Assembly: GCF_026151205.1 (NCBI RefSeq)
Contig: NC_087075.1
Location: forward strand, 6,342,858 to 6,406,857
Direction: 5' to 3'
Length of the DNA: 64,000 nt
Source of the DNA: Bolinopsis microptera
Taxonomy: Eukaryota; Ctenophora; Tentaculata; Lobata; Bolinopsidae
Shown: in pieces, positions 5,600 to 63,700 of the stretch
Position numbering within the stretch: the first letter of the stretch is position 1
Layout of the letters: every line of letters starts with the position of its first letter
The notes under the pieces: generated by a model
The model's input: the letters and a program-made list of their open reading frames with translations, nothing else
Database searches by the model: none
Told to the model about the DNA's origin: nothing
Program-made: the position numbers and the translations under genes

Positions 5600-5740
5600 T
5601 GTCACAGTGATATAAAAACTAAATGTTACCTAAATGTTACCTAAATGTTACTTATATGTTACCTTAAGTTCCTGTCACAGTGATATAAAAACTAAATGTT
5701 ACCTAAATGTTACCTAAATGTTACCTAAATGTTACCTTAA
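5600..5740. repeat. 11-bp tandem repeat containing the exon-15 donor
   Basis: ACCTAAATGTT is repeated in two clusters, each followed by ACCTTAAGTTCC and preceded by CAGTGATATAAAAACTAA. Read on the minus strand each unit is GTAACATTTAG. The first unit is the 5' splice site of receptor exon 15 (CTTAAG|GTAACATTT). The larger block is itself duplicated. Confidence 0.8.
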
Positions 5741-5893
5741 GTTCCGGGTTCCTATTCGGGCTCCTCTTTCCCTTCAATAGTTCCAGAATAAAGACTATAA
5801 CAGACAGTGCAACAACAGGCAGGATGATAGCCATAGTTCCCACTACGGAGAAGACGTTGATCTCACTTGAGCCTGGTTTAGCCGCCAGAGTTC
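5736..5893 (-). CDS. Receptor exon 15: TM4 and start of C-tail
   Basis: The acceptor CTCCAACAG joins in phase 1. INVFSVVGTMAIILPVVALS is the start of TM4, followed by the basic stop-transfer stretch KGKRSPNRN. It ends CTTAAG|GTAACA in phase 0, so the protein continues in another exon. Confidence 0.88.
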
Positions 5894-6190
5894 CTGTTGG
5901 AGTTAGACTGGATAATACCTTATTTGGGCATCACGTGTGTTAGACGGGATCTGATTTTTGGAGTGCTATAATTTTGCTTCACATTATCAATCAATACAGA
6001 CTAATTATGAAATTATTTATAGTTTAAAAATAAACAATAATATAGTTTATAAATAAACAATAATCTTATTATATATCTTTTAAGTATAAAGGTCCAGTCC
6101 CAGAGAGATTAAGATCTCACTTTATTAGCGTACGGACCAGTGGCGTAACGAAGGGCCCCGCTGACCCCGGTGGGGGGAGGGGGCGCCGTG

Positions 6191-6237
<47 letters not shown>

Positions 6238-9200
6238 AAATCGTCGTTTGAATGTGTGACAATTTCGAAAACTTAACTAAAGTACTAGCAAAACTGCGCG
6301 TTTTGCTCTAGATACACACTTTTTTAGAGATTTTACCGGCGTATCCTCTAAAATCACCTAATTTGTTCAATTTTAGAGAGGGGCACCAAAAAGGGAGGGG
6401 GCGCCAACAGGGGGCGCTTTTTCGGCGGGGGGCGCCAACAGGCAACGTTACGCCACTGGTACGGACGTGTAATAATAATAAACACTTACCAGTGCAGGTA
6501 CGTACTACGGACGTGTAATAATAGTAAACACTCACCAGTGCAGGTACGGACTACAGACGTGTAATAATAATAAACACTCACCAGTGCAGGTACGGACTAC
6601 GGACGTGTAATAATAGTAAACACTCACCAGTGCAGGTACGGACTACGGACGTGTAATAATAACTACACTCACCAGTGCAGGTACGGACTACGGACGTGTA
6701 ATAATAATAAACACTCACCAGTGCAGGGTCCAGCCGCCCAGTTCCTCCACGCTGGCAGTATCTCGTTCTTCTCCTTCATCTGGATCAGACCCTCATTTAT
6801 CAGCTCTATCAGGGGACTGTCATCAGGCAGAGCGAATGAGAGCTCGTACTCTAACAGCCTGTAGTTGCATGTGTGTTTATGTGCGTTTTAGTAGTGTTTA
6901 TGTGTGTTTTAATTGTGTTTATGTGCGTTTTAGTAGTGTTTATGTGCGTTTTAGTAGTGTTTATGTGCGTTTTAGTTGTGTTTATGTGCGTACTCTAACA
7001 GCCTGTAGTTGCATGTGTGTTTATGTGTGTTTTAATTGTGTTTATGTGCGTTTTAGTTGTGTTTATGTGCGTTTTAGTAGTGTTTATGTGCGTTTTAGTT
7101 GTGTTTATGTGCGTTTTAGTAGTGTTTATGCTCTCAATTCCTCAACAGTTATCAATTGTTTTTATACTGACTTGAGAGTTTTGTTTAGTGCTAGTAACAA
7201 GAGTTAATTACTATATTTCTGAGTTTAAAACTAATATAATGAGTATCTTAGTTATACATTCGTCCGGGCGTTTGAGTGAGAATCTTAGATATAACCTGTG
7301 AGTGGATATTTTGAGTCCGCAAGGTTCAAAGTTGCTGGTGTACTCTAGAGGAGCTGAACCGTAGAGGAATGCGTAGTCACCTTGTCTGGCACTGTTTACA
7401 CCTTCCTGGTATGAGGGGACATTCTTCATCCTCCTGGAGAGTGGTTTGTTACTTTCAACACTACTATTTAACAAATAAATTCTTCATTCTCCTACAAATA
7501 TTTTATCTGAATTGTGGTGTTTTACTGCCAACTTATAACATTTCTCGTGGAGATGGTATTAATCAGCAATTTTATCCTTATTCAAACACAAAGATTTGTT
7601 TTCTTCATCTTTGCATAAAATATCCCCACATATTCTGTGTAAAAGAAACAATACCTTATTTGGGCATCACGTGTGTTACCTGACGAGGCTAGCCATTTCC
7701 TGATCGGAGGTATTGCTCAGCAGCATGTCCGTTATCGAACCCTCCACAGTTCCAGTAGTCATTCCTGTACATTGTACATTGTTATTCCTGTACATTGTAC
7801 ATTGTTAAATATACTAGAGGTAGTCTTATTCCTGTACATTGTACATTGTTAAATATACTAGAGGTAGTCTTATTCCTGTACATTGTACATTGTTAAATAT
7901 ACTAGAGGTAGTCTTATTCCTGTACATTGTACATTGTTAAATATACTAGAGGTAGTCTTATTCCTGTACATTGTACATTGTTAAATATACTAGAGGTAGT
8001 CTTATTCCTGTACATTGTACATTGTTAAATATACTAGAGGTAGTCTTATTCCTGTACATTGTACATTGTTAAATATACTAGAGGTAGTCTTATTCCTGTA
8101 CATTGTACATTGTTAAATATACTAGAGGTAGTCTTATTCCTGTACATTGTACATTGTTAAATATACTAGAGGTAGTCTTATTCCTGTACATTGTACATTG
8201 TTAAATATACTAGAGGTAGTCTTATTCCTGTACATTGTACATTGTTAAATATACTAGAGGTAGTCTTATTCCTGTACATTGTACATTGTTAAATATACTA
8301 GAGGTAGTCTTATTCCTGTACATTGTACATTGTTAAATATACTAGAGGTAGTCTTATTCCTGTACATTGTACATTGTTAAATATACTAGAGGTAGTCTTA
8401 TTCCTGTACATTGTACATTGTTAAATATACTAGAGGTAGTCTTATTCCTGTACATTGTACATTGTTAAATATACTAGAGGTAGTCTTATTATAGTCTTAG
8501 AATAGTCAATAAATGGTCGTGAAATAGTGTGGAACCTGATTTTATCTGATTGTAATAGATCTCCCATATAAGTCTCAATATTCTTGTGGATCCTACCCTT
8601 ACCTGATTGTAATAGATCTCCCACAGTCTCGATATTCTCATGGATCCTACCCTTACCTGATTGTAATAGATCTCTCACAACCTCAATATTCTTGTGGATA
8701 CTCCCCTTACATGATTGTAATAGATCTCCCACAGTCTGAATATTCTTGTGGATCCTACCCTTACCTGATTGTAATAGATCTCTCACAACCTCAATATTCT
8801 TGTGGATACTACCCTTACATGATTGTAATAGATCTCCCACAGTCTCAATATTCTTATGGATCCTACCCTTACCTGATTGTAATAGATCTCTCACAACCTC
8901 AATATTCTTGTGGATCCTGCTTTTACCTGCTTGTAATAGATCTCCCACAGTCTCAATATTCTTGTGGATCCTGCTCTTATCTGATTGTAATAGATCTCAC
9001 ACAGTCTCAATATTCTTATGGATCCTACCCTTACCTGATTGTAATAGACCTCCCACAGTCTCAATATTCTTGTGGATACTACCCTTACATGATTGTAATA
9101 GATATCCCACAGTCTGAATATTCTTGTGGATCCTACCCTTACCTGATTGTAATAGATCTCTCACAACCTCAATATTCTTGTGGATACTACCCTTACATGA

Positions 9201-12200
9201 TTGTAATAGATCTCCCACAGTCTGAATATTCTTGTGGATCCTACCCTCACCTGATTGTAATAGATCTCCCACAGTCTCAATATTCTTATTGATCCTGCTC
9301 TTATCTGATTGTGATAGATCTCCCACAGTCTCAATATTCTTATGGATCCTACTCTTACCTGATTGTAATAGATCTCCCACAGTCTCGATATTCTTATGAA
9401 TCCTACCCTCACCTGATTGTAATAGATCTCCCACAGTCTCAATATTCTTATTGATCCTGCTCTTATCTGATTGTGATAGATCTCCCACAGTCTCAATATT
9501 CTTATGGATCCTACTCTTACCTGATTGTAATAGATCTCCCACAGTCTCAATATTCTTATGGATCCTACCCTTACCTGATTGTAATAGATCTCCCACAGTC
9601 TCAATATTCTTATGGATCCTACTCTTATCTGATTGTAATAGATCTCACACAGTCTCAATATTCTTATGGATCCTACCCTTACCTGATTGTAATAGATCTC
9701 CCACAGTCTCAATATTCTTATGGATCCTACTCTTACCTGATTGTAATAGATCTCCCACAGTCTCAATATTCTTATGGATCCTACTCTTACCTGATTGTAA
9801 TAGATCTCCCACAGTCTCGATATTCTTATGAATCCTACCCTTACCTGATTGTAATAGATCTCCCACAGTCTCAATATTCTTATGGATCCTACTCTTACCT
9901 TATTGTAATAGATCTCCCACAGTCTGAATATTCTTATGAATCCTACCCTTACCTGATTATAATAGATCTCCCACAGTCTCAATATTCTTGTGGATCCTAC
10001 TCTTACCTGATTGTAATAGATCTCCCACAGTCTCAATATTCTTGTGGATCCTGGTTACAGTGAGGTAGGCTGCCAGGTTTGCTGTATAGAGGGATATGAG
10101 GACCAGACATATAATCCACCAGGCGGTAACCAGGACTCTTGTGGACCAGCACCGGGGAGTGGCATCAGGAGGTCCTATCTGGTGGGGTAACGAGTAAAAT
10201 TACCTTATTGCGTGAACGGATATTAAAATGAACGCTCGAGGGGCCACTACTCAGGACAAATAACGTCCAATATATATATATATATAATAAGGTAAATTCT
10301 AGAAATGCAAGCCGTGAAATATTTGACTAAATACTAATAGGGGTTTTTAACCCTAAATAAACCGGTATGCTGCCTGTAACAATTACTACTCGGACCTCAC
10401 CTGCAGAAATGAGCAGATTATCAACCAGATACTGTTCAGCAGATTGAGACTCTTCATTTCATCATGTATACCCTGCTGCTCCCCAAACGGGCAGCCCTTC
10501 ACACTGAAGTCTCCGTTTAAACTAGCAGTGCACTGCTCACACTTACAACAGAGCAGCTTCTGTTTGGTGCCGCCGTAGTAACCGTAGGGGGAGAAGTGGT
10601 CGAATACCCATATCAGGACGCAGAAAACACAACCTGCTAACACAATAGCTATCCACAGCTCCCTGCTGAAGGGGCGCAGGAAGAAGAAACTGTCTGTTTT
10701 GAACATTGTGAGAGGGTCGAATCCGTCTGCTCCCACTGCTCCTCCTTCCTAAATAAATAAATGAATAAAATCAAAGTTTATACTGCAATTTATCGGTAAA
10801 TATTTGAGTCAGTTTTATTAGAAACTGTAAAGGATCGAATCAGACCATGAGTCTGTTTATAGTAGTACACCCTACTAAGGATATTATATCCTGGATTTAA
10901 AATATTATGAAGGAGCAGTACCTGCATTGCCATCACTATTCCTCCAGTCAGTAGGGGCACAGCGAAATCTACAACTCTCTCCCGGGCGCTGTTGATACCA
11001 AAAGCTACTATTCCCATGTCTATTTCCCGTCTTTTTAACATACCAATGAGACCATCCCACTCTTCTTCGTTCTCAGAGACCGGAGCTCCAAAGTTTCCTG
11101 ACGGGTCCTCAACAAAAGTGAAAGTAAAATCATACTGTTTAGCGAGCTTCTCTACAATATCAATGTTGAGCCCCTCGTAGCACCTCAGCTGGTCCTTGTA
11201 CAGACACTTATCATGACCTGCCTCCTCATAAGTAAACTTTACAAAGGGGGGATCCTTTACCACACCCAGGCGGAGGTGCGTGCTAATCGTGTTCTTCAGC
11301 TTGGTGTCACCCCCGTAGAACTGGGGTTTGGATTGCAACCCTATTCCTTTAGATTCCTCGAATTTACCAATGTCGACTGGCACACCTGTGTAGAAAGTTT
11401 GGATTTAAAACGTTATCATCAAATAAGATTAAGGCACCTATTCCTTTTTATTTGGTAATATACGTAATATATGACATTTGAATTTTGTCTGTATGCACAT
11501 GTTGACTAATTTATCATAGCAATATTGGCTAAGTAAAGGGCGAATAGAAGAGTATCTCAAAGAAGAGTATCTCAAATATGCAATAGAAAATATTAAAGAA
11601 TAAAACTATAAAATATCCAAATGATGAATATTAAAATGAAGGATGGCTTGTCTAGAAAGATGAAATAACTTGTGAACAAATGCAAACTAATAATTAAATA
11701 ATTAATAATTACTAACTAATAATTAACTAATAAATTACCTGTTCTAACATTGACTATCGTGTAAGTGTTCTTAGCAGGACCGCCCCATTTTGAAAAGGAA
11801 ATGTTTCCACCACTCACTCCCCGAAATGAGATCTCTTTCATGGCTCTAGTTATGAGGTACCCCTCCTTAAACCAATTCACAGCCGGAATAGTGTACCCGT
11901 GGTCATCCGCTCTTTTTACCCGTTTTAAACTCCCGTTTTTATTTTCACTTTCACTTTCACTTTCAGTATCAGTTTTATTGATGTCAAGGCTTTTTAGCTC
12001 GCATCTCACGGTTGGATCATCAAAAGTCAACTTTCCTTGTTTGTTAAGGTAGTCCAACGCTTTTATGAGCGCCATGGTGCTATCGTATACCTATAAACGA
12101 TATATTTCAGATCCAATGTAATTAATTTCACACGAAATGATAGCAAAAATAAAAAGGTAAGCATAGCTCAGGTCAATTATGAGCAAATCATATCTTCCAT

Positions 12201-20410: not shown

Positions 20411-20453
<43 letters not shown>

Positions 20454-24190: not shown

Positions 24191-25911
24191 CCCGTGGTAA
24201 ATTGTTTTAAATTGTAGCTTGCATTATGAGGATATCCTAATTTAATATTCAACTAGTCAATAGTTGAGTTACCCCAAGTTACCCCATTCTGGGACATGTT
24301 GAACTTTCGCTTTCGCTTTTTATGTGGTATTATTATTTCACTTTTACTTTCACTTTCACTTCACAGTGGTTCTGGGACACGTAAGACGTAGAGGGTGGTA
24401 CGACGAGGAATACAATTACTATAACGTCAATGTAAACCAGATCTTTAGAAGAAGGTAATGGTAATTATAGACCAATTAGTAATCAATATAACCGGGAAGT
24501 TACTGGAAAGTAATCAGGGCAATTGAGCCTTAATTCATGAGGTTATTACATTTATAACGATTTTGTTTACGATGACTGATGAGACACCACTTTAACCCTC
24601 GAGTAATTTTGTTTTGATGGATTTTATAGTCTCACAATCAATTATATTCTCAGGACAGTTGAATCATTTTTACTATCAGTTACCACCCCAGTTTCAAGAA
24701 CGGGCACTGTTCGTATTACCCCCAGTTACCCCCTAGTAACCACATAGTTACCACCTAGTAACCACCTATTTACCACCATGTTACCACCTAGTTACCACCT
24801 TGTTACCACCTAGTTACCAGCTAGTAACCACCTAGTTACCACCTTGTTAGTTGTTACCACCTAGTTACCACCTATTTACCACCTTGTTACCACCTAGTTA
24901 CCAGCTAGTTACCATTTAGTTACAATCTAGTTACCAGATAGTTACCACCCAGTTACTATCCAGTTACTATCCAGTTACCACCTAGTTACCACCTGGTTAC
25001 CACCTAGTTACCACCTAGTTACCATCCAGTTACTATCTAGTTACCACATAATTACCACCTAGTTACCATCCAGTTACTATCCAGTTACCACCTAGTTACC
25101 ACCTAGTTATCACCTAGTTACCACCTAGTTACCACCTAGTTACCACCTAGTTACTATCCAGTTACTATCCAGTTACCACCTAGTTACTATCCAGTTACCA
25201 CCTAGTTACCACCTAGCTACTATCCAGTTACCACCTAGTTACCACCTAGTTATCACCTAGTTACCACCTAGTTACCACCTAGTTGCTATCCAGTTACCAC
25301 CTAGTTACCACCTAGTTACCACCTAGTTACCACCTAGCTACTATCCAGTTACTATCCAGTTACCACCTAGTTACCACCTAGTTATCACCTAGTTACCACC
25401 TAGTTACCACCTAGTTACTATTCAGTTACCACCTAGTTACCACCTAGCTACTATCCAGTTACCACCTAGTTACCACCACAGTTTCAAGATTAAAACGGGC
25501 ACTGTTCGTATTGTGACCCCCCGAAAGTGTGGCAAAGAGCTAAAAGTCGGACAACTTTACATTTTGGGAATAGAAGTAAACCGAGAATTTGACTCAAACC
25601 CTCTACAAATCACCAGGTAATCTGAGAAAAAAAGACGATTTAAATTTCGGTTCGTTCATCGATGATATATAAAAAAATTCTATAACCTGTGACTCAGGTG
25701 CACCTTGGCAATGAAGTACAATGATGTCTCGTCTAACTTAAGGAATGCGATGGTGAGAAGGAGAATAGACTGCACGTGCGGTGTGTCTTCTTGTGGGCAT
25801 ACCACTTGTAACTCTGCTTTTCAGGTTAATTTCACTTTCACTTTCACTTTCACGTTCACTTTCACTTTCACTTTCACTTATTGTAACTCTGCTTTTCAGT
25901 TTAATCTTTGA
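24008..25911 (+). CDS. TIMP-like secreted metalloproteinase inhibitor
   Basis: Exons 24008-24134, 24367-24454, 25482-25616 and 25698-25911 (or to a donor at 25824) join with consistent phase. Exon 1 encodes a signal peptide (LVGVVVLFLLWTVLPITAS) and CERCQEFRLQTDYCAPHAVV, which matches the TIMP N-terminal Cys pattern and the NTR/OB-fold start. Exon 3 has VRIVTPRKCGKELKVGQLYI, the conserved CG..L..G.LY segment. Exon 4 has CTLAMKYNDVSSNLRNAM and CTCGVSSCGHTTC, like the TIMP W..L...Q..GL...Y..C.C.I..C....C region. Length (about 150 to 180 residues) is a little short. If exon 4 reads through the TTTCAC run it ends in a run of Phe-Thr repeats. TIMPs block matrix metalloproteinases; here the first Cys is four residues after the likely cleavage site. 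Confidence 0.8.
24696..25481. repeat. 11-bp minisatellite bounded by two copies of the exon-3 acceptor
   Basis: About 65 degenerate copies of GTTACCACCTA (variants GTTACTATCCA, GTTATCACCTA). At the left end TTACCACCCCAGTTTCAAGA and CGGGCACTGTTCGTATT occur at 24688-24724. At the right end the same sequence is the true exon-3 start (acceptor at 25481). Confidence 0.9.
25808..25899. repeat. TTTCAC hexamer run flanked by a duplicated exon end
   Basis: TTGTAACTCTGCTTTTCAG occurs at the end of TIMP exon 4 (to 25824, then GTTAAT) and again ending at 25899 (then TTTAAT). Between them are about eight TTTCAC units. The frame stays open across the whole block to TGA at 25909. Confidence 0.85.
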
Positions 25912-28517: not shown

Positions 28518-29256
28518 TCAAGATTTGGTAAAGTCCCACAACTTGACAGTTTTATCGTAACTACCCGAAACTATCTTTAGATCGTTAAATTGTAGGCACG
28601 TGACGCCGTCAGTGTGTTCTCGCAGTGTTACCAGTCTCTTTCCGCTCTCTAGTGACCACACCTGTAACGTGGTTATCAGGGTTATTCTCATGCCAAAATA
28701 TCCAAAATATCCAAAATATCCAAAATATCCAAAATATCCAAAATATCCAAAATATCCAAAATTTAACCTGGATCATTTGATAAATTGATACATTTGGTCG
28801 TGTTTACAATTAATAAAGCTGGTATGTAGAAGAGGCAATATTATGCTTTTAGTGTTATCGTCACTACTTTAACAAGATTTCTTAGCGTTATCAATTTACA
28901 GTAATGGGACACAGCAGTTCTAAGACCGATTAGTGCATTTTTGTTTGATAAGTAGTTCTAGTCACTGCTAATCAGCTTACGAATTTTGACTGATTAAATT
29001 TTGCTTTTGTTACAATTTTTACGTTTGAGTTAGTAAGCTATGATGATTATATATGAATTTCACTTGCCACACCTGTATAAGTTTAAAGTGGTTATCGGGG
29101 TTACTCTCATGTGAAAATATCCAAAATATTACTTGTCAACTTTGCCTCTCTCGCAATTTCTACAAGGATTTTGTTTGAATAATGGTGTCAACAAGTCAAA
29201 CATTGAAATACAAATGTGTATCATATTGTATGTAGGATGTGGGGGGGGAGGGGGGG

Positions 29257-29287
<31 letters not shown>

Positions 29288-32200
29288 CTATTTACCTTGA
29301 TTGTTTTATCATCAGCAGCGCTAACAATCCTCCAGGTATCTGCTTGTAAACATCTCACAACACCAGTGTGTCCTTCAGCACTGGGCAGGAAAGGGAGACG
29401 TTACAGATGAAAACAAATATGGAACTCTTAAATCAGCTGAGAAAACTTGCGAATAAATTTGTCTGTCCAACAAGCTGTATTTCATTTCAACATACCTCGC
29501 CCAGTCGAGTGTTTGAATACACCTCTCACTTTTGATGTCCCAAACTTTTATTTGGGTATCTAAACTCCCAGATACTATCCGGGAATGGTCGAAGTGTATG
29601 CACGTGACAGCGTTGTTGTGACCAGATAGTGTCGCCAAACATTCTCCTGTATCAAAACTCCACACCTATCAAGGTGTTTATTACATAATAGCGGTATGAT
29701 TACATTAATTACTTATTAGTTATTCATCAATTTATTTTTAAAACTTTTTTGTAACTCGGTAAAAACGTTTTTATGTATGTTGAGACGAACCAAAAATCGT
29801 TCATATCCCATACAAACATAGAACATAATATTATCTTTAGACAGTAATTTAAGTAGAAGTGCCCCTAACATTCAAACAAAATCGGTGATTACAAACCTTA
29901 ATAGTGTTATCGCAGGAACCACTGACTATCTTGCTGCAATCAAACTGTACACTCAACACAGCTGCCAAATGTCCACGTAGAGTGGCTAGACATTCCCCAG
30001 TGCTCAGTCGCCATTTCTTTAGGGTGTGGTCGTAGGAACCACTAACTACAACCCCTAGACCTACCTGATTACAAGAATACAAACATGTTAGGAATGATAT
30101 ATGGAAATTTAACGGTGGACTAGTGACCACTCAGAGAATTATTCGAAGCCGCCATTTTATTTTAGGAAAACAACAACATGGTTGACTGCACGTTTTATGT
30201 TATGTTTTACTTTGCGGACGAAAACGCCGCGCAGTCATCCGATAAGATTGATTTAGTTTTTTCTCATAGTTTGCGGCGCGCGTTACAATTTACATTTTAT
30301 CCACTGTGACCGAATATTGTGCCCATCGTTGTCCAATTACTTTAGATCTGGGAGCAATGTCAAATTGCTAATTAGTGATTACCAATTAGTGATTGCTAAC
30401 AAAAATACAACCTGTAAACATCTGACTGTATGACTGTGGCCCACCATAGTTACAGTACATCTACTTCTTGACCATCCAACTCCTTCAGCAAGATCCCAAA
30501 CTTTAATCGTACAATCGCTTGAACCTAAAATAAAAATAAATATATATATATATGTGTGATACTAAAAATGTTGTGTACATAGTTAATGATAATATTTGTA
30601 AGTTAAGTTATATAGGATGTACTTCAGACTCTTTAAAGGTTAGATTTAGGAACCATAAATCCCACATTAAAACCCAAAGAAGGACTTGTGAACTTTCCTG
30701 CCATTTTATAGATAATGAGATTTTGCACAATCTTGACCGTACCACCACTAAGTTGTTTACCAGTACTTTAAGTAAGGACATTAATGTTTCGATTATAGAG
30801 CAAGTTGACGTTGGGAATTTTGAGCAATGTGCCCAGGATAGACTAAGTATATGTAAACAAAGGGAGAACTTTTGGCAAAACCAGCTTAAAACTTTAAAGC
30901 ACTTTGGAGGGATGAATGTTAGAGAAGAAAGATGATTTTTTTCTTGCATATTTTATTTTCTCACCTCTACCACTCATTTGGGATTTCCACCCACCATAAC
31001 TTGAATTGCTGAGTTACATAAATTTCTAAATTTTAAATTTCTTTTATTTGATTGATTGATGGATTGATATTTTGAATAAATTTACTAACATGTCTTTATA
31101 TCAGGATGACTGTAAAGGTACATTTTACCGACATTTGAAGTCAAGGCGTTGTTTTACTGATAGTTGTGGCTGACTAATAATATATATATATATATATAAA
31201 ATATCATTATTCAACCTTTCGTTGGTCAACCTTACTCGACGCTTCATAACATATATTCTAGAATATCTAAAAGATAAAATACAGTATCCTGTATCAAACA
31301 TTCGGAAAGTTTACACCACAACAAAACTAAATTCGATCAATATTAAAATTAAATTAAACTGTGAGAACTAACCGCTGACAAGTTGGTTATTATTGAGATG
31401 CAAGCACCTAACAGTGAAAACTTACCGCTGACAAGTTGGTTATTATTGAGATGCAAGCACCTAACAGTGAGAACTAACCGCTGACAAGTTGGTTATTATT
31501 GAGATGCAAGCACCTAACAGTGAGAACTTACCGCTGACAAGTTGGTTATTATTGAGATGCAAGCACCTAACAGTGAGAACTAACCGCTGACAAGTTGGTT
31601 ATTATTGAGATGCAAGCACCTAACAGTGAGAACTAACCGCTGACAAGTTGGTTATTATTGAGATGCAAGCACCTAACAGTGAGAACTAACCGCTGACAAG
31701 TTGGTTATTATTGAGATGCAAGCACCTAACAGTACCACTATGTCCTCTTAGTGTTAATCCGCCCCAGGGGGTGTTGGATCTGGTGCTCCATACTTTTATA
31801 GTCTTATCAGAACTACCACTAACAATTCTGAAGTCGTCGAACTGTACACATGTGATGCCCTGTGAAATGTCAATTTCGTATTTTGGGGATTATACAAAAT
31901 TGGATGTTGGTAAATTAATCATAATCATGTGATGCTTAGATGAAAACAGCAATGTTCAATAATCGCCATTGATTAGCTCGCTCTAAACTTACAATAAACC
32001 GTGTTAACATTCACCTGTGTATGTCCCTCAAACGTCCTCACGTAACAGTTACCAGTCAACCAGTTGTGTTGTAATTTGTACCTCTCTATGAACACTCGTC
32101 TCCAAGGTATATACCCGTACCGAGACTTGAATATCTCCAATTGTTTTGACGCTACCTGAATAATGTGTTTTATAAGCTGTGCTGTAAACATACAGATAGG

Positions 32201-35200: not shown

Positions 35201-38200
35201 CACTTTATTTGAAGGACAATACGGTTTTCGGCGGGTCGGTCGCGTGAACATGCGCTCCTTGATGCAACCAACACGATTAGACACAACCTCTCCAAAAAAG
35301 AGGTCTCTCTACTCCTCCTACTTGATTTTAGCAAAGCGTTTGATGTAATTTCCCACGATATTTTCTTAGACAAACTGTATCATTATGGTATAAGAGGACT
35401 AGCACACCAATGGTTCAAGTCTTATTTAAGTTCCAGGAGTCAGTATGTTTCAATAGGGGGCACAAATTCTTCCTCACAGTCCATGAGACATGGAGTGCCG
35501 CAAGGCAGTATTCTAGGACCTTTACTTTTCATAATATATATCAATGACATGCCAAAAATCAAATCGTACGCTAAATTTGTTTTATATGCTGACGACGCAA
35601 ACATAATTATATCAGGTAAAAATCATCAAGAATTACTACAAAAGATGACATAATTTTCACCTTTATTGATAAACTGGGTAGATCAAAATGGTCTTTCGTT
35701 AAACCTTAAGAAAACGTGCTACATGCTCCTCAACACCTGACGTAAATATTCAAATTGCAGGCACCACTATTGAGCGAAAAACTGAGGCCCGATTTCTTGG
35801 CGTAATTGTTGACGAAAAATTGACCTGGACCAGTCACATTACTGCTCTTAAATCGAAAATGATGCGGTATATTGGTATTATGTACAAAATAAAAAGTCGG
35901 CTGCCGATTAAAGTTAGACTCCAGATATACCAAAGCTTTGTACAGTCTCATATAAACTATTGTTCATTGATATGGGGTTTTGCTGCAAAAAGCCATATAG
36001 ATGCTATATTCAGCAAACAGAAGCAAGGAATAAGGGCTATTATGCCTGGCTTCGTAAACTACTACTTTAAGGAAGGTGCCTTACCACAACACACAAAGCC
36101 ATTTTTCAGTGAACATGAAATTCTCACTGTGCATGGTCTTATCGTTTACAACTCAATTTCAACTGAAACGAATATAATCTAAGTTTAAATTAAGTCTATT
36201 GTCTAATTAATCGCATGCAACAGGGAGCAGTATGAAAATCACACAACCCAGCATATATAGAAAATACACTAAATGACACGAATTTAAATAACAACTTGCA
36301 ATTACTGACTACCAATATAATAACCGCTCGCAAAACTACCCCCACTTAGCGTAGATAAGCAAGCATTTCACTGCCGCTAAATTCCTTTTCCATACATTTA
36401 TCTCAATCGCGCGCTCATAATTACTGTAAGCGCTGAGTTACCGGCCAAAATCATTAATCACTGATGGTAAAATTTTGCACAAAATTTAAAAAACAATAGT
36501 CCAAGCTGTTCAGTGCAAGTCTAAACTTCTTAACCTATAGGATCGATATTATGGATGTGTAATATCATGTGTAGCGTGAAGCGTCGTGTTTTTAAATCTG
36601 TAGTTCATAGTACTTCATGATCACAGTGTACTTTTTGATAACAGTGTGCAGTGCCCTTTCCAGAGGGTTAAAAAAAAAAAGAATTTTTAACATTACTATT
36701 TTCTATCTATTACTGTTTGTATTATAATTTTGAGTAAACATTAATCGAGTAAACCGCTCGATTCCCAATCAATCAGTAGCTCTTCTTATATCTCCGAACC
36801 ACTACATCATTCTTTAGCATAATGCGTTGCTCTTACAACTTTACTTATAGTTTATTTATATCATGCAAGGAAGAATGCCTCAATTCTGCTTGTAATTATC
36901 AGTGATAATAACGTCGGGGGAAAGTTGGCAGAACGGCGGTAAAAGGCGTTAGTTATAGGTAAAAGATTAAATAAAGACATATTTATAAAGGAGCTAGAGG
37001 AATGTCAGGAATGTCTGATATTATTCCGTATCAGACAGTGCAGATGTAGAGCCAGATAATCTGAGGTTCTGCCGCTGTTCTGGTGTCCACTTGTACGACC
37101 ACTATTCTAATTTACCATACCAATTTACTACGAGATGTTGGGCCTACTAAGATACCGAGATTACAGAGCATCTCACAGAACTTAATGATAGAATACAATA
37201 TGAAGTTTACAGATTGGAACATTTCTTATTAGTTGTAGAATGATGATATTATCTGAAAACGGTGGCTATATCAAACTGGGCAGTGGGCACCCGGTACAAC
37301 AAAATCTACAACTTTAACAGTACAGAGTGAAGACAGGTTCTGGAAATTGTCCAAGAAACGTGCTGGAACTTTGTCAGCGCCTGCAAGACTGGCACGTGCC
37401 AACTGCCAAGCAGATCTTTAGTTTTTTTGTTAAGTTATAGGTCACGTGACATTTTTGACCAATGCGTGTCATAGTAGTAGGTCATGTGATACGCGTCATC
37501 AGAACACGTGACATGATAAACCAGCACACGGAATAAAGACGAGATATCACTCAACAAAACCAAACTAGAACTGGGTTGAGTGAATAGGAGAAGGAATTAT
37601 TTACAAAGTGGGAAAAACAGCGGTATGGATCAAAATAACACCGCCCCTTATTTTCTATATCCCCTCCCTTGGCAGTATCCCGGAGGAGTTTATACAGCCA
37701 TTAAACAAAAACCCACCTCTAAGCTGAGTCCAGGTGGCAACCAGTAAAGTATATCAGTACAGTTGTGTGGACAGTTAGCATGAAGTATTGGAGCCATCAG
37801 GGTCGACAACAGGTGGGTTTGGGGAGAGTTGGAAATTTCTAGAAGTTGTTTTAAAAAGTCGTTCTTCTGGGCGTCATCAAATTCTTCGTACCATCCCAGC
37901 ATTGTTCGTAGATGTGTGTGAAACTGCACTGTCGGAACTCCTTGCTGAAGAGGGTGCAATTATGGTTTTATGTGGAAATGAAATAAATATCAAATATTGT
38001 AGGGTAAGAAATTGTTAATATGTATAATAATATAAGTCCTGCAATACGAAATAAACTGAGTGTTTATGGTTGATGATTTGTTCAACGTTTAAAAAATTTC
38101 GTGGAATGTTAATAATCACCCGTGTTTCAATGCGAAGAATCGTTTTCATAATATGATTACTGAAAATAGCAAGGGGAAGTAAGGAAAGGGCCCACAAACC

Positions 38201-42130: not shown

Positions 42131-42214
42131 AGCGGGGCGCTTCAGAAAACAACAAATTCACCCTACTGTAACTTGTAATGGGATCCCAAATTAAGTCCAG
42201 GCTGCACCACCACG

Positions 42215-43170
42215 AGTTATAGATAAATGTATAAAAACACTTTACTGCAAAGCTAATAAAATTCTTAAACTTGTTCATCAGTATATGAAGAGTAACTTGC
42301 TGCATATCAACATAAAGAAATGTTGTTATATCCACTTTAAGCCGAACTGTAGAAATGAACCAGATTCAAACACCAATGAATTAGAACTGACACTAAATAA
42401 TATAGTAATTAAAAAGGTGGAGGAAACTAAGTTTCTTGGAGTCATTATTGACCAAAAACTGAACTGGGATGCTCACTTAAGAGCGTTAAACCGTAAATTG
42501 AAATGTGAGATAGGTAGACTATGTGGAATTAGACGCTGTGTACCTAAAAAAACTATATAAGGACCTGTACCACACCCTTTTTGAATCACACCTATGTTAT
42601 GGAATATCTGTTTGGGGAGGTGTATCAAATAATAAACTAGAAGCCATATTTAAAACACAAAAGAAATGCATAAGAATTCTCTTTGGTGATAATGATGCAT
42701 ACTTCAATAAGTTCAAAACATGTGCCAGAGTAAGGCCTATCACTAGGGATAAGACCGGTAAAGTTATCAAGCAGATGTTAGGCAAAGATTTCTTTGAACT
42801 AGAACACAGTAAACCAATCTGTAACGAGTATAACTTCCTGACTGTCCACAATCTTCATAAGTTGCACTGTTTACTGGAAATGTTTAAAATTAATAAGTTC
42901 CAATCACCAGTCTCAATGTTCTCTTTATTCAACAGGTCACCAAGACGAGACAACTACTTCATCCCACCCACTCCATCCTCACTATTCATCTATCAATCAA
43001 CTAGTATTTGGAATCACTGCCGTAAGTCAACAAGTGAAATAGACTTCTCCACTCCCATCAGTATATTCAAGAATAATCTTAAGAAATCTTTGTTAGAACT
43101 ACAATCTAAATATGACCGACAGCTTTGGTGCAGTTACAACTTTGATGCAAATGAATTATCATTGAAATAG
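42215..43170 (+). pseudogene. LINE ORF2, C-terminal half
   Basis: The frames read LLHINIKKCCYIHFKPN, TKFLGVIIDQKLNWDAHL, FESHLCYGISVWGG, IFKTQKKCIRILFG and SIWNHCRKST, the region after the catalytic core of a non-LTR reverse transcriptase. The frame shifts in the run of seven A near 42545. It ends at TAG 43170. Confidence 0.85.
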
Positions 43171-43396: not shown

Positions 43397-43993
43397 TTAG
43401 ATAGCAGATATAAGTAAAATACAATTTTTTAAGTAACTTGTTATATTACAAATATCATTTATGTACAGTATGAACAGTAGAGGTCCGAGCACACTCCCTT
43501 GGGGGACTCCAAATTCTACAGGTAATTCATCAGATTTTACATCAAGAACGTCCACAAATTGTTTTCTATTAGATAAATAACTAGAGATAAGATTTAGAGC
43601 ATTTCCTCGGATACCATAGTTATTTAATTTTGTTATTAGCTTAGAGTGGTCTAGGGTATCAAAGGCTTTAGAAAGATCTACGAAGACACCTAGTACGTGC
43701 TGCTTTTTGCTAGTTAACGATTCAATATGTTCTACAGAATAATTAAGTGCATGACTAGTGGAATGCCCTTTTCTGAAAACAAATTGGTTTTCATGAATTA
43801 TTCCCTTAGAGGTTAAGAAACTATACAACCTAGCATATATCAGTTTTTCTAGTATTTTCCCAAAAACAGGTAGTGTCGATACGGGTCTATAATTTCCTAA
43901 AAGCTGTTCATCTTCCTTTTTGTAAATCGGACTAATTCTCCCTGTCTTAAGTTCTTCATATTTTCTTTTAAATGAAGTAATGGCATTATACAT
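43397..43993 (-). pseudogene. LINE ORF2, N-terminal reverse transcriptase half
   Basis: GNYRPVSTLPVFGKILEKLI, VFVDLSKAFDTLDHSKLI and FGVPQGSVLGPLLFILYIND. It stops before the YADD motif. Orientation is opposite to the adjacent C-terminal half. Confidence 0.85.
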
Positions 43994-43999
43994 TGTTTG

Positions 44000-48280: not shown

Positions 48281-48313
48281 GAACAACAGTGATTTCTCTA
48301 AGGGGGGACAGAG

Positions 48314-49949: not shown

Positions 49950-50400
49950 ATATGATCATCTAGGAGACACTCTGAAAGACCTTCATTGGCTGCCTATTAG
50001 TTACAGAATTCAATATAAGTTATTGCTTCTTGTCTATAAATGTCTTAATGGTATGCAGTCACTCAGATGATTTTAAATCAGGACACTTAAATAAAGACAC
50101 ATACTCTGCCCACAATAAGGGGCCATAATTTTTAAATTATGTAACAGTATAGAATTATTATTATTATTATTTAATGGTATGGGACCAGATTATTTAAGTA
50201 ATATGTTTAAATATGCCAATTATAATTTCATCTTATCTATTTGTCTGAACATGAACCTAGAGTATCTAATATACACAGTATAATGGAGAAAGATCGTTTC
50301 AGAAAGTTTACCCTAAATTATGGAATGAGCTGCCTCTTGAAATTATTTTCAAAGTTATTTATTTTCAAGGTTATTTATTTTCAAAGTTTTTTTCACTGTA
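49950..50400 (+). pseudogene. Decayed LINE tail
   Basis: LKDLHWLPISYRIQYKLLLL then VYKCLNGM match the conserved L.WLP...RI.YK....VYKCLNG segment near LINE ORF2 ends; LNGMGPDYLSN continues after a break. No intact frame. Confidence 0.75.
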
Positions 50401-50428
50401 GGATTGAATATTTTTGAAATAGGTACTC

Positions 50429-54842: not shown

Positions 54843-55147
54843 GTTTCGAATCTAAACTCTTAGTGATTTAAAAAAGTTTTTTAGAGGTTTTGTACATTTG
54901 TTTTTAAGGCCGGAATCGGTGGCAGGCAACTATCGTGTCATGAATAATGAACGTTTCTTTATTAAGTTGTAAAATCACATCATGTTAGACTTTATGATCT
55001 GCGAATTTCTTTATCCTTGGTTTATATATATATTTTATATTAGTGCATCTTCTATTATTTTATAAAGAAAAGATTAATATCTTAAAAGATTCAGATTTAT
55101 CAAAGATTTTTACCTATATTTTAAAACGATTTATTAACAGCAATAGG

Positions 55148-56090
55148 ATGCCTGAGTTCGATGACTCTATCGGGGAGCAGTGGCATCAGGATTTTCAAGG
55201 ATTCATGCACCAGTCTCGAGAAAATGGACAATCTGGGTTGGAAGATGAGTTTGGTGCCCAGCAGGAGATTTATACAAAAGTATGTTGCAATTGTCTGAAG
55301 TCTTTTGAACTTCTAATACTGATATTATTTGAACTATTTAACAGAACTTAAAAGTTATCATTTTAAATCTAAATTGTAATATTATTCTTTGAAACCCTCT
55401 GATTATTTTCCCATTAAAAGCCGTACAAATCATTATTGCAGAATGAAATACGATTAATTTCAAACACAGACTAAAATATGTAAATATGTAAATATACAAT
55501 TTTTTTTTCAGTACGCGGAAAACTATGACAACCTGATACACTCAGATTTTGAGCGTTACGTGGGCTTCAATATTCTGGCTAACGCTATCAACGAGAACTT
55601 TGCTGACAAGTCTCTCAGAATCTTAGACTTTGGCTGCGGAACTGGACTACTGGGCCAGGCTCTCCACAACAGAAACTTTAAGAACATCGACGGCTCCGAC
55701 TGCAATTCCGAATTATTGAAACCAGCAGCAGATAAAGGATGCTTTAAGAATCTGTACTGCAGTAGAGGAACAACCAACCTCCCAACCGAACGAGTATACG
55801 ACATTATATGTTCCTCTGGTACATTCTTTCTGTCCAGATCTCATCCCTGTACTGAGGCATTTCCTGATCTACTGAAACTATTGAAACGTGGAGGTACCCT
55901 TATCATCCTCACCAAGAAGTCCTATCTCAATAAGGATTACGTTGACTGGAGTATTGTTAAGGAGATGTTAAGGAAAAACATCATAGAGGAAGTTGAAAGG
56001 GTGTACATTCCTGGGTATAGGAAAGTGTTTGAATTTGAGGAGGATAGGTTGAGTATGGCATCCATCTTACACTATCGAGTTCTTCAATAA
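55148..56090 (+). CDS. METTL27-like SAM-dependent methyltransferase
   Basis: Exons 55148-55279 and 55512-56090, joined in phase 0, give 236 residues. The start is ATG 55148 (MPEFDDSIGEQWHQDF); an in-frame ATG at 55043 precedes an AT-rich, unconserved-looking stretch and is less likely. Exon 2 starts YAENYDNLIHSDFERYVGF, typical of METTL27/WBSCR27, then LRILDFGCGTGLLGQAL (SAM-binding motif I), NIDGSDCNSELL (motif II) and YDIICSSGTFF (motif IV). The SAM fold is clear; the substrate is unknown. It begins about 300 bases after the hydratase-family stop, on the same strand. Confidence 0.88.
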
Positions 56091-56720
56091 TTGAAGTTAA
56101 CTGATTTGTGTACATTTAGTTAAAGTCAGATCTGAATTGTAACAATTTTGATAGTGTATGTTGTTCAGTAGGTCTGTTTGTTCAAAATTTATTGAAAACA
56201 TGTTCTGATGTCGTTACATTTTATTTAATTTAATTAAATCAAGTTGGTTGTTATCGTTATTATTCATAGATTTTAGTGATTACTTTTTCTTGATATAATA
56301 TTTTATTCTGTACTACAATTTTTGCTTAAACTTACTATTTTCCCCGCCCCCTGTTTTGATGTATATTGCAAAAAAAGTTTTGTGTGAATTAAGAAATGGC
56401 CAATCTTCGATTTAGTACTTTTACGTTTTACATGATGCATTTCCATAAATGCAGACTATCCAGTGATGATTTCATCTAGATGTTTCTTCTAGCTTTCTAG
56501 TTTGATTAGATATTTGCAGTTAACAAATCCCTTTAATTTTGAACCTTGCTTTTAATTTTATACACTGCCTTGAGTTCTGAAACTTCTTAGAAATATTTTA
56601 GAGTAATATTGTAAAATGTTATATTTTATAAAACTATAATATTATATAATTTCAGATTTACATTAATTCTTGATATTTCAGGAAACAAAATAATGATTTC
56701 AGAAAAAAAATACACTCCTT

Positions 56721-57497
56721 ATGTTTTATTCATTTCTAAACAGTATTAGACTGGAATTTAAAACATTTTTGTTCAATATCATATTATATGTCAGCCCAAT
56801 CCAGACAATGGATTTAGGAGACCTCTCAATCCGCCCTGTTAGCAAGGCCAAGAACCTGGGATTCCTTTTCGATCACCAAATGAATCTGGACTCTCAAATA
56901 AATGCTGTCTCCAAAGTATGTTATTTGAATCAAAGGGACTTAGCAAGAATCGGTTCGAAGCTTTCCCATGACCTAAAAGTTCAGTTAGTTCACTCCAATA
57001 TCCTCTGTTTCATAGACTACTGCAACTCAGTCTATTATGGTATAACAGAAAAGAATCTCCATAAGCTACAAAAGATACAGAACAATGCTGCTAGATTTAT
57101 CTTTGGTCTTTACGGAAAAAAGATACGTGAACCTATCATGCCTTACCTCAAAAAGCTCCACTTTCTGCCTGTTCGGTTCAGAATTAAGTTCAAAATATCA
57201 CTTCTGGTCTTCAAGTGTCTTAATAACATAGCCCCTCAGTACTTACAAGGACACGTCAATCTAAGGGAAGTACGAAGACGAAGTTCCAGACTAGATGATG
57301 ACTTTTATTTGTTGAAAGTTCCTCCTGCTCCTCATTTCAGACGAACAGATGCTGCATTTATGTTTTGTGGACCAAAAATTTGGAATGAACTACCCTACTC
57401 AGTGAGATCATTATCATCTGTAGAATGTTTTAAAAATGCCCTAAAGACGTTTTATTTCCAACGAGCTTTTGATAATATTTCTAATATTTGTCCATAA
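56721..57497 (+). pseudogene. LINE ORF2 C-terminal fragment
   Basis: An intact 3' frame: KNLGFLFDHQMNLDSQI, KLQKIQNNAARFIFGLY, LKKLHFLPVRFRIKFKISLL, VFKCLNNIAPQYLQ and FCGPKIWNELPYSVRSLS. This is the CR1/L2-type post-RT region. The 5' portion is absent. The open frame suggests a fairly young insertion. Confidence 0.85.
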
Positions 57498-57745
57498 TGT
57501 CTGAACTGATATGAAAGTGCATAATTTTGGTAACTTCATACAAATATTTGTTCATAAAATCTGAACTGTTTAAAAAGTCCATAATCTTGCTATTTCAACA
57601 CTAAGTCTCGCTTGAATGACTTTAATGTACATCTTTGTTGGGTATATTTTAATGTCGAAGCGTGTAATAAATGTTAGAATTTATTTATTTATTTATATGT
57701 TATTTTTATAAAAATAATCGTGATGATCCCAAACTTCTTAAAGCA

Positions 57746-60700
57746 ATGAAGCCTGATGACACTCCCGGTAAATCTTTCGTTATTCCCAAGAAAGCGCGTT
57801 CTGTCGCCCACCAGTTCACCTCCAAATTGGAAAAAGGAACCAGAGATTGGGACAACATTGCTGGGATTCTGAAACACAGTTGCCGTGTAACTCGGAATAT
57901 TGATAGGTAAGTTAAGAATCGAGATCTGGCAGATGTTTTTCATTACCTATAATCTTTTATTTGAAAATAACGTCAATAAACGTGCACAATTTTGAAAAAT
58001 AGTTGGATCAAATCTTAAATAATACCACTATGATATGTAGGTATATTTTACACTGCAACTGTAACTTGAAATTTTAAACAATTGTATAAATTGATTCCCG
58101 TAATTATGTGTATCATTTGAAATTTCAAAGTTTTAAAATATCTCTATTACTTCCAGGTTTATTTTAGAAAACATGTGGTTGATCAACAACGAGAAGCTCA
58201 CTAGCCAATATAACCAGAAAAAACAAGACATGAAAGACCAAGGTTTAAAAAGTTAGAGGTTATTCTCCAAGAAGCTCATAAAATTGTCATCCTGCCTGTA
58301 CTGAATTCTTAGATGTATGAATAGCGTGTAATGAGACCGAAATAAGTAAAAGTCGGTATGTAAATTATTTTATAAACCTCTGTTTGCTTGTAGGACGAAC
58401 ACAGCAGGAACTGAAGGAGCTATTCGCATTTAACCTGTGCTCAGATTTCCGACTAGCAACTAATTTTTGTAAATATGGAATGAAGGCTGGCAACGCCTTC
58501 AGTGGAAATCATCTGGGGGACTGTAATATGGGCGTTTATTTCTACAGGTCAGTTTCTTAATTTATAATGTTTAGACCTGTTTTGTTCCCGAAGCAGTTTC
58601 TTAATTGATTAGGAATAAACTGTTCAGAAATAAAATGTTTGATGCTGAGAAAACAACCAATCACTTCCGTTGAAAGCTCAATAAATCCTACTTTTTACAC
58701 AATTTGGTAGACAATTACTAATTTAATCACATTTTTGAACTTTATACACATACCACCCGCTCAGATTTATAGATACGATGAAGAAGTACATTGGATGGAT
58801 GAACAAAGAATTTACTGGGTTTCTGGTGATATACAAATTAATGAGGGGCCGTGTAAAAAATGTTACAGTACACAAGGAAACAGACTCAATATTGGAACCG
58901 GATCCAAACTACGATTGCCACACTTCCAAGTATACGCTGTCACAGGTAATTAGTGAACTGGAGGAGTCACCAGAGCGGACCAACTACAAACTTTAACTTG
59001 TTTTCGCCTGGTGTAGCCTTTAAAGTTCATCAATATTTGATCCATTTACCCTCAAATCTTAGTGATTGATAACCGTTAACTAGCACAATCGCATCAAAAA
59101 CGTCATTTTTTCTTCCTCTCAACCTCGGTCGGATGACATAAACTAATTACTCTATTACATTTATTGAGAATTATGTCATGTAACGCGATAGAAATATTTT
59201 AAACGGGTCATATCCTGTCCAAACCCAGGATGCACTACATGAAGTTGTAACTTTGTTTGAAAGGCATTAATAAACTAAATATTTAAAATATTAAAAACAC
59301 CTCAGTTTCACACGATGAGATACGCAGATGCCTACATCTCTGGTCGGTACTATGTCTACGAGTTTGATGATAACCTAGAGATAGTAGGAATTCCTCGGCA
59401 GGTGGTCCCGTACGCTATTGTTGAGTTCCGCACTAAACCAGATGAGAATCAGAAGGAGAGGAACCATCAGCCGGTCATGAGATCTATTTCAGAGCTTCCC
59501 TCTTCCAAGTTAGGGAAATATGTGTTTTAAAAAAATTACACGTGCACCCTTTAAACCTGGTTAACTAATTATCTTTAATTGTGATAATATCTAGATTTAA
59601 CGTTTTTTATTACTATTCATTATAATACAATAATACCTTGGCTTTTGAGGGCTTTTGTTACACGTGCACCCTTTATATCTGGTCAACTTATTATGATTAT
59701 CTGAAATATCTAGATTTGAAATCGACAATAATGAGAACAAGGAACGATTAACATTCAAGCAACTATAGTTCAAGCTTGATTACCAAAACGATTTTTTATG
59801 TCTTGGAAGTACTTAGAAATCCTTGAACATCTGGCAATGGTGTAATTTCTCCTAAACAGTTTTGGTGTCCACCTCCTACTATCGACAATACTTATAAACT
59901 GTAAGTTTGTTGATTGATCTAAAGGTGACCCCCTGCAGGACGCCTAAAGAAAATCTGGAAGTAATAATAGACGGAGTACCTTTAGATGCTCCTTTACCTG
60001 CCCCAGAACCAGAGATAGCAGCTAAAGCCGGTCTCCTCCCCACTCCCACTTCTGTTACACCAGCCCTCCTGCCTACTCCTGATGATCCTGAGAAAAAGGT
60101 TTGCAACTGGTACATTTAATTATTTATCTTTCTCCTCCCCACCCCCACTTCTGTTACACCAGCCCTCCTGCCTACTCCTGATGATCCTGAGAAAAAGGTT
60201 TGCAACTGGTACATTTAATTATTTATCTTTCTCCTCCCCACCCCCACTTTTGTTACACCAGCCCTCCTGCCTACTCCTGATGATCCTGAGAAAAAGGTTT
60301 GCAACTGGTACATTTAATTATTTATCTTTCTCCTCCCCACCCCCACTTTTGTTACACCAGCCCTCCTGCCTACTCCTGATGATCCTGAGAAAAAGGTTTG
60401 CAACTGGTACATTTAATTATTTATCTTTCTCCTCCCCACCCCCACTTCTGTTACACCAGCCCTCCTGCTTACTCCTGATGATCCTGAGAAAAAGGTTTGC
60501 TGAGTACAAGTGGTTATATATAATATTTGCTGAGTGGTACATTTAATTATTTATCTTTCGTTCATCACTCACTTTTTGATTGTAGTATATGTATGGTGAA
60601 GCAAGTGAAGCATAGGAAACAAAAGATAATATGCATAATATGCCTAATAAATATTCAAACTACTAGAGGACTACTGCACTTCTATGTGGTGTTATATTTA

Positions 60701-63700
60701 AAAAAAATCTAAATCTTTCAAACAATACATAATTATACAGAATTGAATGCTTCTAAATAAACCCAGTTATAAAAGGAGAAAACCGATATAGCCCTAATAT
60801 CCACTATCCCAGTATGAAACCCAAATTATGTATTGAAAGAGGGGTGACCAAAACACAGTAGTGTGCAGTAAGAAATACCACACCCGCAATAATAAAATAA
60901 ATAATAATAAAATTTGGTAGCTTAAACACAAACTCTAAGCCCAGTGGATAAACCACAAAACTTATGCTCTATTGTGTGAAACAAAGATACTAGATCAAGA
61001 TAACTATCAAGGAGTGTATGCATAGGACATAAAAAGTTTTGGAACGAAGATGACATGCTTGTGAAGCGAGCTAACAGTCTAATTGCTAATAAGTTCAAAA
61101 AGATCATGACATTAGGTTGCATCCTAAACAGTTTAAGCAAATAACATAAAGTTATTATATTGTCAATTAATCGCTCATGCCATAACTTTTCTTAAACAGG
61201 TGAGTTTTTAATAATGTTTTGAACAGATCAACATCAGAACAAGTCTTAATTTCAATTGGTAGTTGGTTCCAGATTTTCGGAGCAACAGTCTGAAACGCTC
61301 TTGGGTGTGATCTTGTAGATCCGACGGGTAGGTGTAAGGAGGAAGTTCTTCTGCTACTCGAACTAACAAATGTTACTAGATCACACAGATATGCAGGAGC
61401 AACACCATTGACTGCTTTGAAAATCAGTAAGCATAACTTAAACTCAATCCTCTCCTTCACCTTGAGCCAATGAAGGGATTTGAGCTTCTCCTCGACTGAG
61501 TCTCTCTTCTTTAATCCAAAAACCAGACGGCATGCTCGGTTCTGAATGTTCTGCAGCTGCGTAATTGAGGCTTGACTACAACCATAGTAAAGTGCATTGC
61601 AGTAGTCAAGCGATGAGATTACAATTGCTTGAGTCAGTGTTCCCATCTGTTTGGTTGTGAGGAATGTTTTCATCTTAGCAAGGTCTCTTAGTTTCAGAAA
61701 ACAGGATGTTTTAAGTTGCTTGATTTGCTCACCAAAGTTTAGTTGAGAGTCGAGACGAAATCCGAGGTTCTTTGCAACAGGTGACAGCCTGACACACGTC
61801 TCAGAGTTAACAAACACGCCCCCTATAGACAGCTGCTGGAGGACAAGCGGTGTCCCAAAGACAAGAATCTCAGTTTTTCCTGCATTGAGCTGTAGATAAT
61901 GTTTTTTCATCCAGTCATTAATTTCTTGGAAACATTTGGGAACATCGTTGATTTATCAACGATGTTCCCAAATGTTTCCTTATAAGGACGGTGGGCTCCT
62001 CGTTTGGCTTGAAACTTTTATACAGCTGATGATCGTCGGCGTAACCCTGGATGGAGAAGTTCAAATCATGTGCTGCTGAGTACAAAGAGCGAATGTAGAT
62101 GTTGAACAGGACCGGACCCAGCACAGAGCCCTAACCCAGCACAGAGCCCTAACATTGGGCCCTAGCAAAAAATTAATTAATCAATGAATTAAAACATATA
62201 ATATTGTACTTATAGAAAATATATCACTCTTAAGGCTCCTTCTCCGAGCTAATGACTCTAAAGTTCCTGATAACATGAACTTTGTCAGGCTCTGCTGTCC
62301 TTTTATTGAGTAGTTGGTCGACAACTTTCTTTCTTGAAAATAAAACTGTTGTAATTTGTAACTCTTCTGGTAGTTGTTCTCAGATTTTGCCACCATAAGT
62401 ATGAAAGTGATACAAAACTTAAACTAAAACTGAAATAACTTAATTTTGTGCAGATATCAGAGAAATTGGATAACTTGCCTGCCAGACCTGACAAACCGTG
62501 GACAAATCCTGGGGATAGAACTCGCAGAGCCAGTAGCACTCACCAGTTCAACGGTAACATATAATTGTATATAATGTAGTGTATGGTCTGTATACGTAAC
62601 ACTGTAACGCTGTAACGCTGTAACGTTACTTATTCATGTTTTATGGGAAACCGTGGACAAATCCTGGGGATAGAACTCGCAGAGCCAGTAGCACTCACCA
62701 GTTCAACGGTGAATTAGTGAAACACGTAACCATTTGGATTTTATTTTAAATTAGCTGATATCAAATTTAAAGCAATCAATAGATCTAAATAGTGCACTCG
62801 GTAATTAAGTGATAGCCCCCAAAATGCCGAATTTCAATTGTGTTTTCAGCTGATCTCAAGTCAGAACTATTGGAAATGCAGGAGAAAAACCTGATATGGT
62901 ACCCGATAATAACCCAGAACAGCAACCATTGGTACACCCCTAGTATCACCCCTGAAGCACTTCATAAGGTCAGATTATTACAGGATTGCTGTCTAAAGGT
63001 CCTGGTTTAAACCGGAACCTTCTACAATCCTCACAACCGGGGACGTTTATCTGTTCGACCCATATCTGTAATTCCTGGAATTTGTGTGCAATTCTGATCA
63101 AAATTACATGAGTTAGTCAAGGATTGCTTCTGATTTTGAGGAGATCTCATCTTGGAATTTCCGTAGGTGATGTCGTGTTATGCCCGAAAGAAGAAAGAGA
63201 AACTACATGAAACATTCGTGTCCCTCAAGATCAACTCCCGCGATCACTATTATCCATGTAACTTCCTCCAGCCTATTAAGTTTGATAACCTTGGGCTCCG
63301 TCAAAAGGACATATTACCCCAGGTGATTAAACCAATTAATAAAGATTTTATGTTGAGGAGTTGTATTTGTAAGATAGTAACAATATAAGTTTGTAAGATA
63401 GTCACAATATAAATTTTTATACGTTATTTTCGTCATGACATTTTTGTTGTGTCCGAAAATGTATTATGTCGTTCATGTTTGACATACATAACGAAGAATT
63501 ATAATTTTGTTCATTTAGTCCTGTTTTAATTGATTAGTTATTATACATGAGGGCAATAATTTCAGAATATTTATCATGAAGTTAAGGAAACAGTGGAGAT
63601 TTACAACATTAGGAAACAGCCAACTTATATTGGGAAGATTTCTGCTAGGGGGAACTTTATTGTCAAGAGTACACTTGTATCAAGAGGAAAATTTCTGAGC

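Follow-up and report, generated by a model that had tools for sequence, protein, structure and literature searches.

Tandem repeats and short duplications that include an exon edge together with its splice site had been noted by a first-pass annotation in four genes of the ctenophore Bolinopsis microptera, within one stretch of 64,000 bases (hereafter the window; C4:6342858-6406857, in a genome of 264,652,675 bases on 232 contigs). We consider it probable that these structures are "mirages" in a ctenophore, that is, ordinary in-situ tandem duplications whose segment happened to include the edge of an exon. Intron 11 of a glutamate receptor gene consists of two such arrays for 2,191 of its 2,242 bases (98%), with 51 other bases between them, and the earlier expectation that intron length would be affected is borne out at this intron.

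We propose that a tandem duplication arising in place takes in the exon edge by chance. The spliceosome would go on using the exon-proximal site (the first donor or the last acceptor), leaving the protein unchanged and the intron merely longer, and duplications falling inside exons would be purged. Slippage or unequal exchange may then expand the array; intron 11 would have acquired one donor-seeded and one acceptor-seeded array in this way, and the high frequency of such arrays in the window could be put down to a duplication-prone region together with ascertainment. Junction duplications would be tolerated because the proximal site is still used, so the tolerance suggested in the first-pass annotation is plausible to the extent that this use is correctly inferred. 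Consistent with it, the reading frame is continuous when the exon-proximal sites are joined, and the alignment to GluA2 proceeds without insertion.

Host genes and the two arrays of receptor intron 11

The receptor is AMPA/kainate-like. Its exons 8-15, when joined, give a single open frame of 619 amino acids with profile matches to the Lig_chan and glutamate-binding domains (exon numbers follow the first-pass annotation, and the first receptor exons are unconfirmed). The GluA2 alignment spans the 11/12 and 14/15 exon joins and has no insertion at 11/12. Among 189 PDB sequences, the four best matches to the ligand-binding domain were three ML032222a ionotropic glutamate receptor (iGluR) entries followed by 4zdm, all of which we take to be ctenophore proteins (Mnemiopsis, Pleurobrachia). 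A protein search for relatives produced 21 matches at 21-29% identity, those with names coming from bilaterians and one plant, so that the phylum is supported by the PDB matches. The F-box/WD40 gene gave separate matches to WD40 repeats and to an F-box, and the TASOR-like gene matched PDB entry 6tl1 (E 3.3e-15) and Pfam DUF3715. The name of the TIMP-like gene is supported by a TIMP domain that scored 22.9 bits, slightly below the Pfam cut-off of 23.1, and we regard all four genes as genuine. Fifty junctions were curated, leaving out one F-box/WD40 donor (F2). An Rfam scan of the window returned no match above the gathering score.

The features of intron 11 and its flanking exons are as follows.

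10007..10178, minus strand: receptor exon 11 (M3 to the start of S2), placed by frame and GluA2 alignment; 3' end TTACAATCAG/GTAAG
8542..10052, minus strand: 54-bp array, ~28 copies, ~1.5 kb, covering the last 46 bp of exon 11 and its donor
7761..8490, minus strand: 44-bp array, ~16.5 copies, taking in the exon 12 acceptor and 4 exon bases
7680..7764, minus strand: receptor exon 12, placed by frame and GluA2 alignment

The donor-side (54-bp) and acceptor-side (44-bp) repeats are different, unrelated sequences, and this bears on the possibility that the arrays record the birth of an intron by tandem duplication of an exon segment. In the Rogers model of intron gain the duplication likewise crosses an exon-intron boundary, and the mechanism is known from potato RdRp and has been modelled for lancelet globins (PMC3087553). 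Intron birth predicts one shared sequence, both intron ends deriving from a single duplicated segment, whereas the two ends of intron 11 carry unrelated units of 54 and 44 bp and no new intron is evident. Moreover, in L040, a diverged paralog, an intron lies no more than one or two codons from the intron 11 position, although in a different phase. We therefore regard intron birth as highly improbable.

We also considered that repeats might have been collapsed or inflated during assembly. The copies of the 44-bp array are 100% identical over ~16 copies, as such an artefact could produce, and a small contig (C68) seems to repeat a placed locus on C3, with equal match length, score and E-value. 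Copies of the 54-bp array, however, differ by copy-specific substitutions, and for lancelet PGBD5 re-sequencing argued against assembly errors (PMC3902484). An artefact thus appears most improbable.

Other junctions and the state of the copied splice sites

Arrays or duplications were found at three further receptor junctions, as listed here.

6845..7130, minus strand: 144-bp duplication, built of ~21-bp units, including the exon 14 acceptor and 14 exon bases
6719..6858, minus strand: receptor exon 14, placed by frame and GluA2 alignment
6460..6727, minus strand: 46-bp array, 5.8 copies, including the last 9 bp of exon 14 and its donor, CTG/GTGAGTG
5736..5893, minus strand: receptor exon 15 (M4), placed by frame and GluA2 alignment
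5598..5745, minus strand: 73-bp duplication and 11-bp AG/GTAACATTT array, including the exon 15 donor and 10 exon bases

The features of the other three genes are these.

31691..31859, minus strand: F-box/WD40 exon (exon 7 of the first-pass annotation), with WD40 match and curated junction
31357..31733, minus strand: 53-bp array, 7.1 copies, F-box/WD40, including 43 exon bp and the donor
28693..28762, minus strand: 9-bp array, F-box/WD40, not across the acceptor at 28661
24692..24717, plus strand: copy of the start of TIMP-like exon 3 with the AG before it, upstream of the 11-bp array
24716..25477, plus strand: 11-bp array, ~69 copies, TIMP-like, stopping 4 bp short of the exon 3 acceptor (25481) and containing no exon bases
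25698..25824, plus strand: TIMP-like exon 4, with curated junction and near-threshold TIMP domain
25881..25906, plus strand: copy of the end of TIMP-like exon 4, after TTTCAC hexamer repeats, with GT lost
60032..60500, plus strand: 99-bp array, 4.7 copies, TASOR-like, including 67 exon bp and the exon 6 donor
62454..62553, plus strand: TASOR-like exon 7, a predicted exon without homology confirmation
62648..62708, plus strand: ~60-bp near-tandem copy of the end of TASOR-like exon 7 with a donor-like GT, 155 bp downstream

Two procedures were used to identify copies of these junctions. In a strict test (12 bases of exon and 12 of intron, up to 4 mismatches, distance no greater than 1.5 kb), copies were detected at 6 of the 50 junctions (12%): the donors of receptor exons 11 (26 copies), 14 (4) and 15 (1), F-box/WD40 exon "7" (6) and TASOR exon "6" (3), and the acceptor of receptor exon 14 (1). 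Four further named junctions proved to have copies when asymmetric windows were chosen manually case by case, for which there is no matched background. These were 16 copies of the receptor exon 12 acceptor, one copy of the TIMP exon 3 acceptor at -790, one of the TIMP exon 4 donor at +75 (GT lost) and one of the TASOR exon 7 donor at +155; the two TIMP-like cases and TASOR-like exon 7 are thus single or near-tandem copies. Local copies therefore accompany 10 of the 11 junctions originally named, and repeats do cross genuine donors as well as genuine acceptors. The eleventh, the acceptor of F-box/WD40 exon "12" at 28661, was dropped as a case since it has no copy and the 9-bp array stops 31 bp short of it.

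Most copied splice sites have kept their signal. GT is intact in 22/27 other copies of the donor in the 54-bp array, and counts for the other six of the seven donors are 5/5, 7/7, 6/6, 4/4, 1/1 and 0/1; AG is intact in 16/16 other copies in the 44-bp array and in 1/1 and 1/1 at the other two window acceptors. Many of the copied sites score as high as the genuine one, and the site in use is therefore not distinguished by strength alone. The first-pass annotation had raised the possibility of selection for decoy sites. On this view such copies would be kept as decoys or alternative sites, and in-frame 54-bp units, for instance, could lengthen the receptor M3-S2 linker in steps of 18 residues. 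Retention of GT or AG in most copies, often at the strength of the true site, would fit this idea, as would the length of the unit (54 bp is 18 codons) and the scarcity of stops on read-through (4 per 486 codons). However, intact sites are already explained by the high identity of the copies, and the frame would not be kept by units of 44, 46, 53, 73 and 77 bp. Comparing 27 copies of the 54-bp unit in register, we counted 2.6 variants per position at the donor against 1.2 elsewhere, with no third-codon-position excess; the donor being more variable than the rest of the unit, there is no sign of decoy conservation. Selection for decoys was accordingly not borne out, and we judge it very unlikely.

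Local origin, recurrence and frequency of junction-spanning arrays

Junction-spanning units measure 44-144 bp in the window and 77 bp in its flank. Four units were searched against the whole genome and all four matched their own locus alone, in a search that skips very common words. A single repeat family was therefore rejected, in agreement with the first-pass annotation, which had pointed to the differing unit lengths; likewise none of the four behaves as an introner-type dispersed element, in which one sequence recurs across many introns.

The pattern was also observed beyond the window. An ATP9-type flippase gene 21 kb past the window end contains a 77-bp array of 8.5 copies that takes in an acceptor and 27 exon bases. 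Its protein aligns continuously with phospholipid-transporting ATPase IIA across that junction, where there is a single extra residue, and AG is intact in 6/6 other copies. Among receptor paralogs, one (L037) has a 32-bp array of 22 copies whose end coincides with an acceptor and which contains no exon bases, and another (L036, 1853-3342) has a 16-bp array of 93 copies starting a few bases inside the intron that follows an exon-12-like exon. On the same chromosome, at a distance of 6.4 Mb, we further identified a partial, gapped copy (L035, C4:12717000-12720999) of the receptor 3' end and of the DNA downstream of it. This copy corresponds to window positions 2686-6137 on the minus strand, with substitutions of 4-5% in the long alignments. 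Its exon 15 is truncated on the 5' side, where it adjoins a 34-bp tandem repeat. At the exon 15 donor it carries 9.2 units of 11 bp without the 73-bp duplication, whereas the window has 4 units together with that duplication; it also carries a single diverged 44-bp piece of the exon 14 46-bp unit. Array state, and hence copy number, differs between the window and this one partial paralogous copy, a comparison within one genome. Together, the local units, the differing state of the partial copy and the paralog and flippase cases indicate a pattern that is recurrent and originates in situ.

Ten receptor paralogs (L010-L014, L016-L019, L025) each match within one open frame of at least 900 residues, so their channel part seems intronless, unlike that of the window receptor.

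As to how often exon edges would be caught by chance, local duplication is frequent in parts of this genome. It accounts for 9, 13 and 24% of the sequence in three large blocks, for 19-22% in two stretches with receptor paralogs and for 0-1% in three others; one shuffle of the window contained 0 local duplicate segments. By the strict test, copies were no more frequent at junctions (12%) than at 3,000 random window positions (12.9%).

We also compared arrays with random placement by collapsing each array to its founding unit and placing it uniformly at random on the intron. Outside the window the sample comprised ~170 kb and 105 predicted introns, after exclusion of exons that were at least 60% repeat and of introns longer than 4 kb. 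There, 5 of the 59 arrays cross a junction against 3.87 (about 3.9) expected, and 3 of 18 against 2.37 when the unit is at least 28 bp.

Several points weigh against our proposal. In the 22 curated introns of the window, 7 of 14 arrays span a junction against 2.57 expected (P 0.0013), and all 7 arrays with a unit of at least 44 bp do so against 2.25 expected (P 0.00006), both P values being affected by ascertainment since the window was chosen for this very trait. For window and outside sample combined, the figure is 12 of 73 against 6.44 (P ~0.02, the outside part being approximated as Poisson). The outside junctions are ab initio predictions, and of the five spanning arrays there the flippase one alone is confirmed by homology. 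Outside the window, repeats contain 25% of the acceptor-like sites with middling scores against 13% of the weak ones. Finally, use of the exon-proximal site is inferred from DNA, with homology as its support.

The excess in the window, and the presence of an array at either end of intron 11, could instead reflect mutation directed at splice junctions, where transcription-linked breaks or R-loops at the edges of exons, for example, would seed minisatellites. The outside counts, which lie near expectation, speak against such a process, as do predicted exons. The 50 curated junctions served both to train and tune our exon finder and to score it (47 recovered), so its accuracy is in-sample. Since exons were predicted inside arrays, we dropped repeat-rich or weak exons, which left a reliable set of 90 out of 192, 23 of them in the window. 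Requiring 6 bases each side, we detected copies at 0/60 donors and 1/60 acceptors of reliable exons outside, and at 4/22 donors and 1/19 acceptors in the window. Strong donors outside are not repeat-enriched: the share of donor-like sites lying in local repeats falls with score, from 16% below 2 to ~9% at 6-10 and 0/31 above 10. The window has the reverse trend, with 57% of the 30 sites above score 10 in repeats. Acceptor-like sites outside have no clear trend (13% below 2, 25% at 6-8, 14% at 8-10 and 1.4% above 10). With spanning outside near expectation and strong donors not enriched in the ~170 kb sampled, a general junction-seeking process, one of the two explanations offered by the first-pass annotation, is not shown, and we hold it to be unlikely. 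The excess of spanning arrays is confined to the window picked for the trait.

A narrower proposal, which we consider quite unlikely, is that exon edges are the preferred birthplace of ctenophore minisatellites with units of ~40 bp or longer, which would thereby drive the lengthening of introns. If so, some introns, such as receptor intron 11, would be almost wholly donor-seeded and acceptor-seeded array.

Relation to known systems and further observations

According to PMC3087553 and PMC3902484, lancelet mirages are junction-spanning repeats in Adh3, globin (BflGb6, BflGb9), TnC and PGBD5 genes, and are said not to disturb splicing. The window shares with them minisatellite-like repeats whose unit includes the exon-intron boundary, at both donors and acceptors, with unit lengths that vary by locus and splice signals kept in many copies. 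Length instability is described for the lancelet repeats; here the window and the partial receptor copy differ in array state. The window differs in belonging to another phylum, in having up to 28 copies and in containing one intron with an array at each end, and it is known from the DNA of one assembly. In human segmental duplications, variable internal tandem repeats modify genes and are in some cases located at exon-intron boundaries, differing between paralogs (PMC2812944); transcripts were compared there, whereas here the comparison is of DNA alone. Our literature search found no report of junction-spanning minisatellites in ctenophores. The ctenophore is thus a new phylum for mirages, and the structure is not of a new kind. 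Occurrence in several unrelated ctenophore genes suggests that junction-spanning minisatellites are no peculiarity of lancelets but a more general result of tandem duplication, and the 54-bp and 46-bp arrays offer natural experiments on how the spliceosome chooses among many near-identical donors.

Runs of G were noted on the plus strand at 6194-6233 (40 bases) and 29241-29287 (~47), both within introns of genes that lie on the opposite strand. By eye we recognized what are presumably non-LTR reverse transcriptase-like fragments at 35061-36179, 42195-43167, 43400-43999, 56697-57494 and 61170-61952, and a frame at 30540-30932, inside an F-box/WD40 intron, which we take to be GIY-YIG/Penelope-like. 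Elsewhere in the genome, three separate arrays of one 54-bp satellite unit, which is not the unit of the receptor, occur within 30 kb (L050-L052, C9:8000001-8030000).

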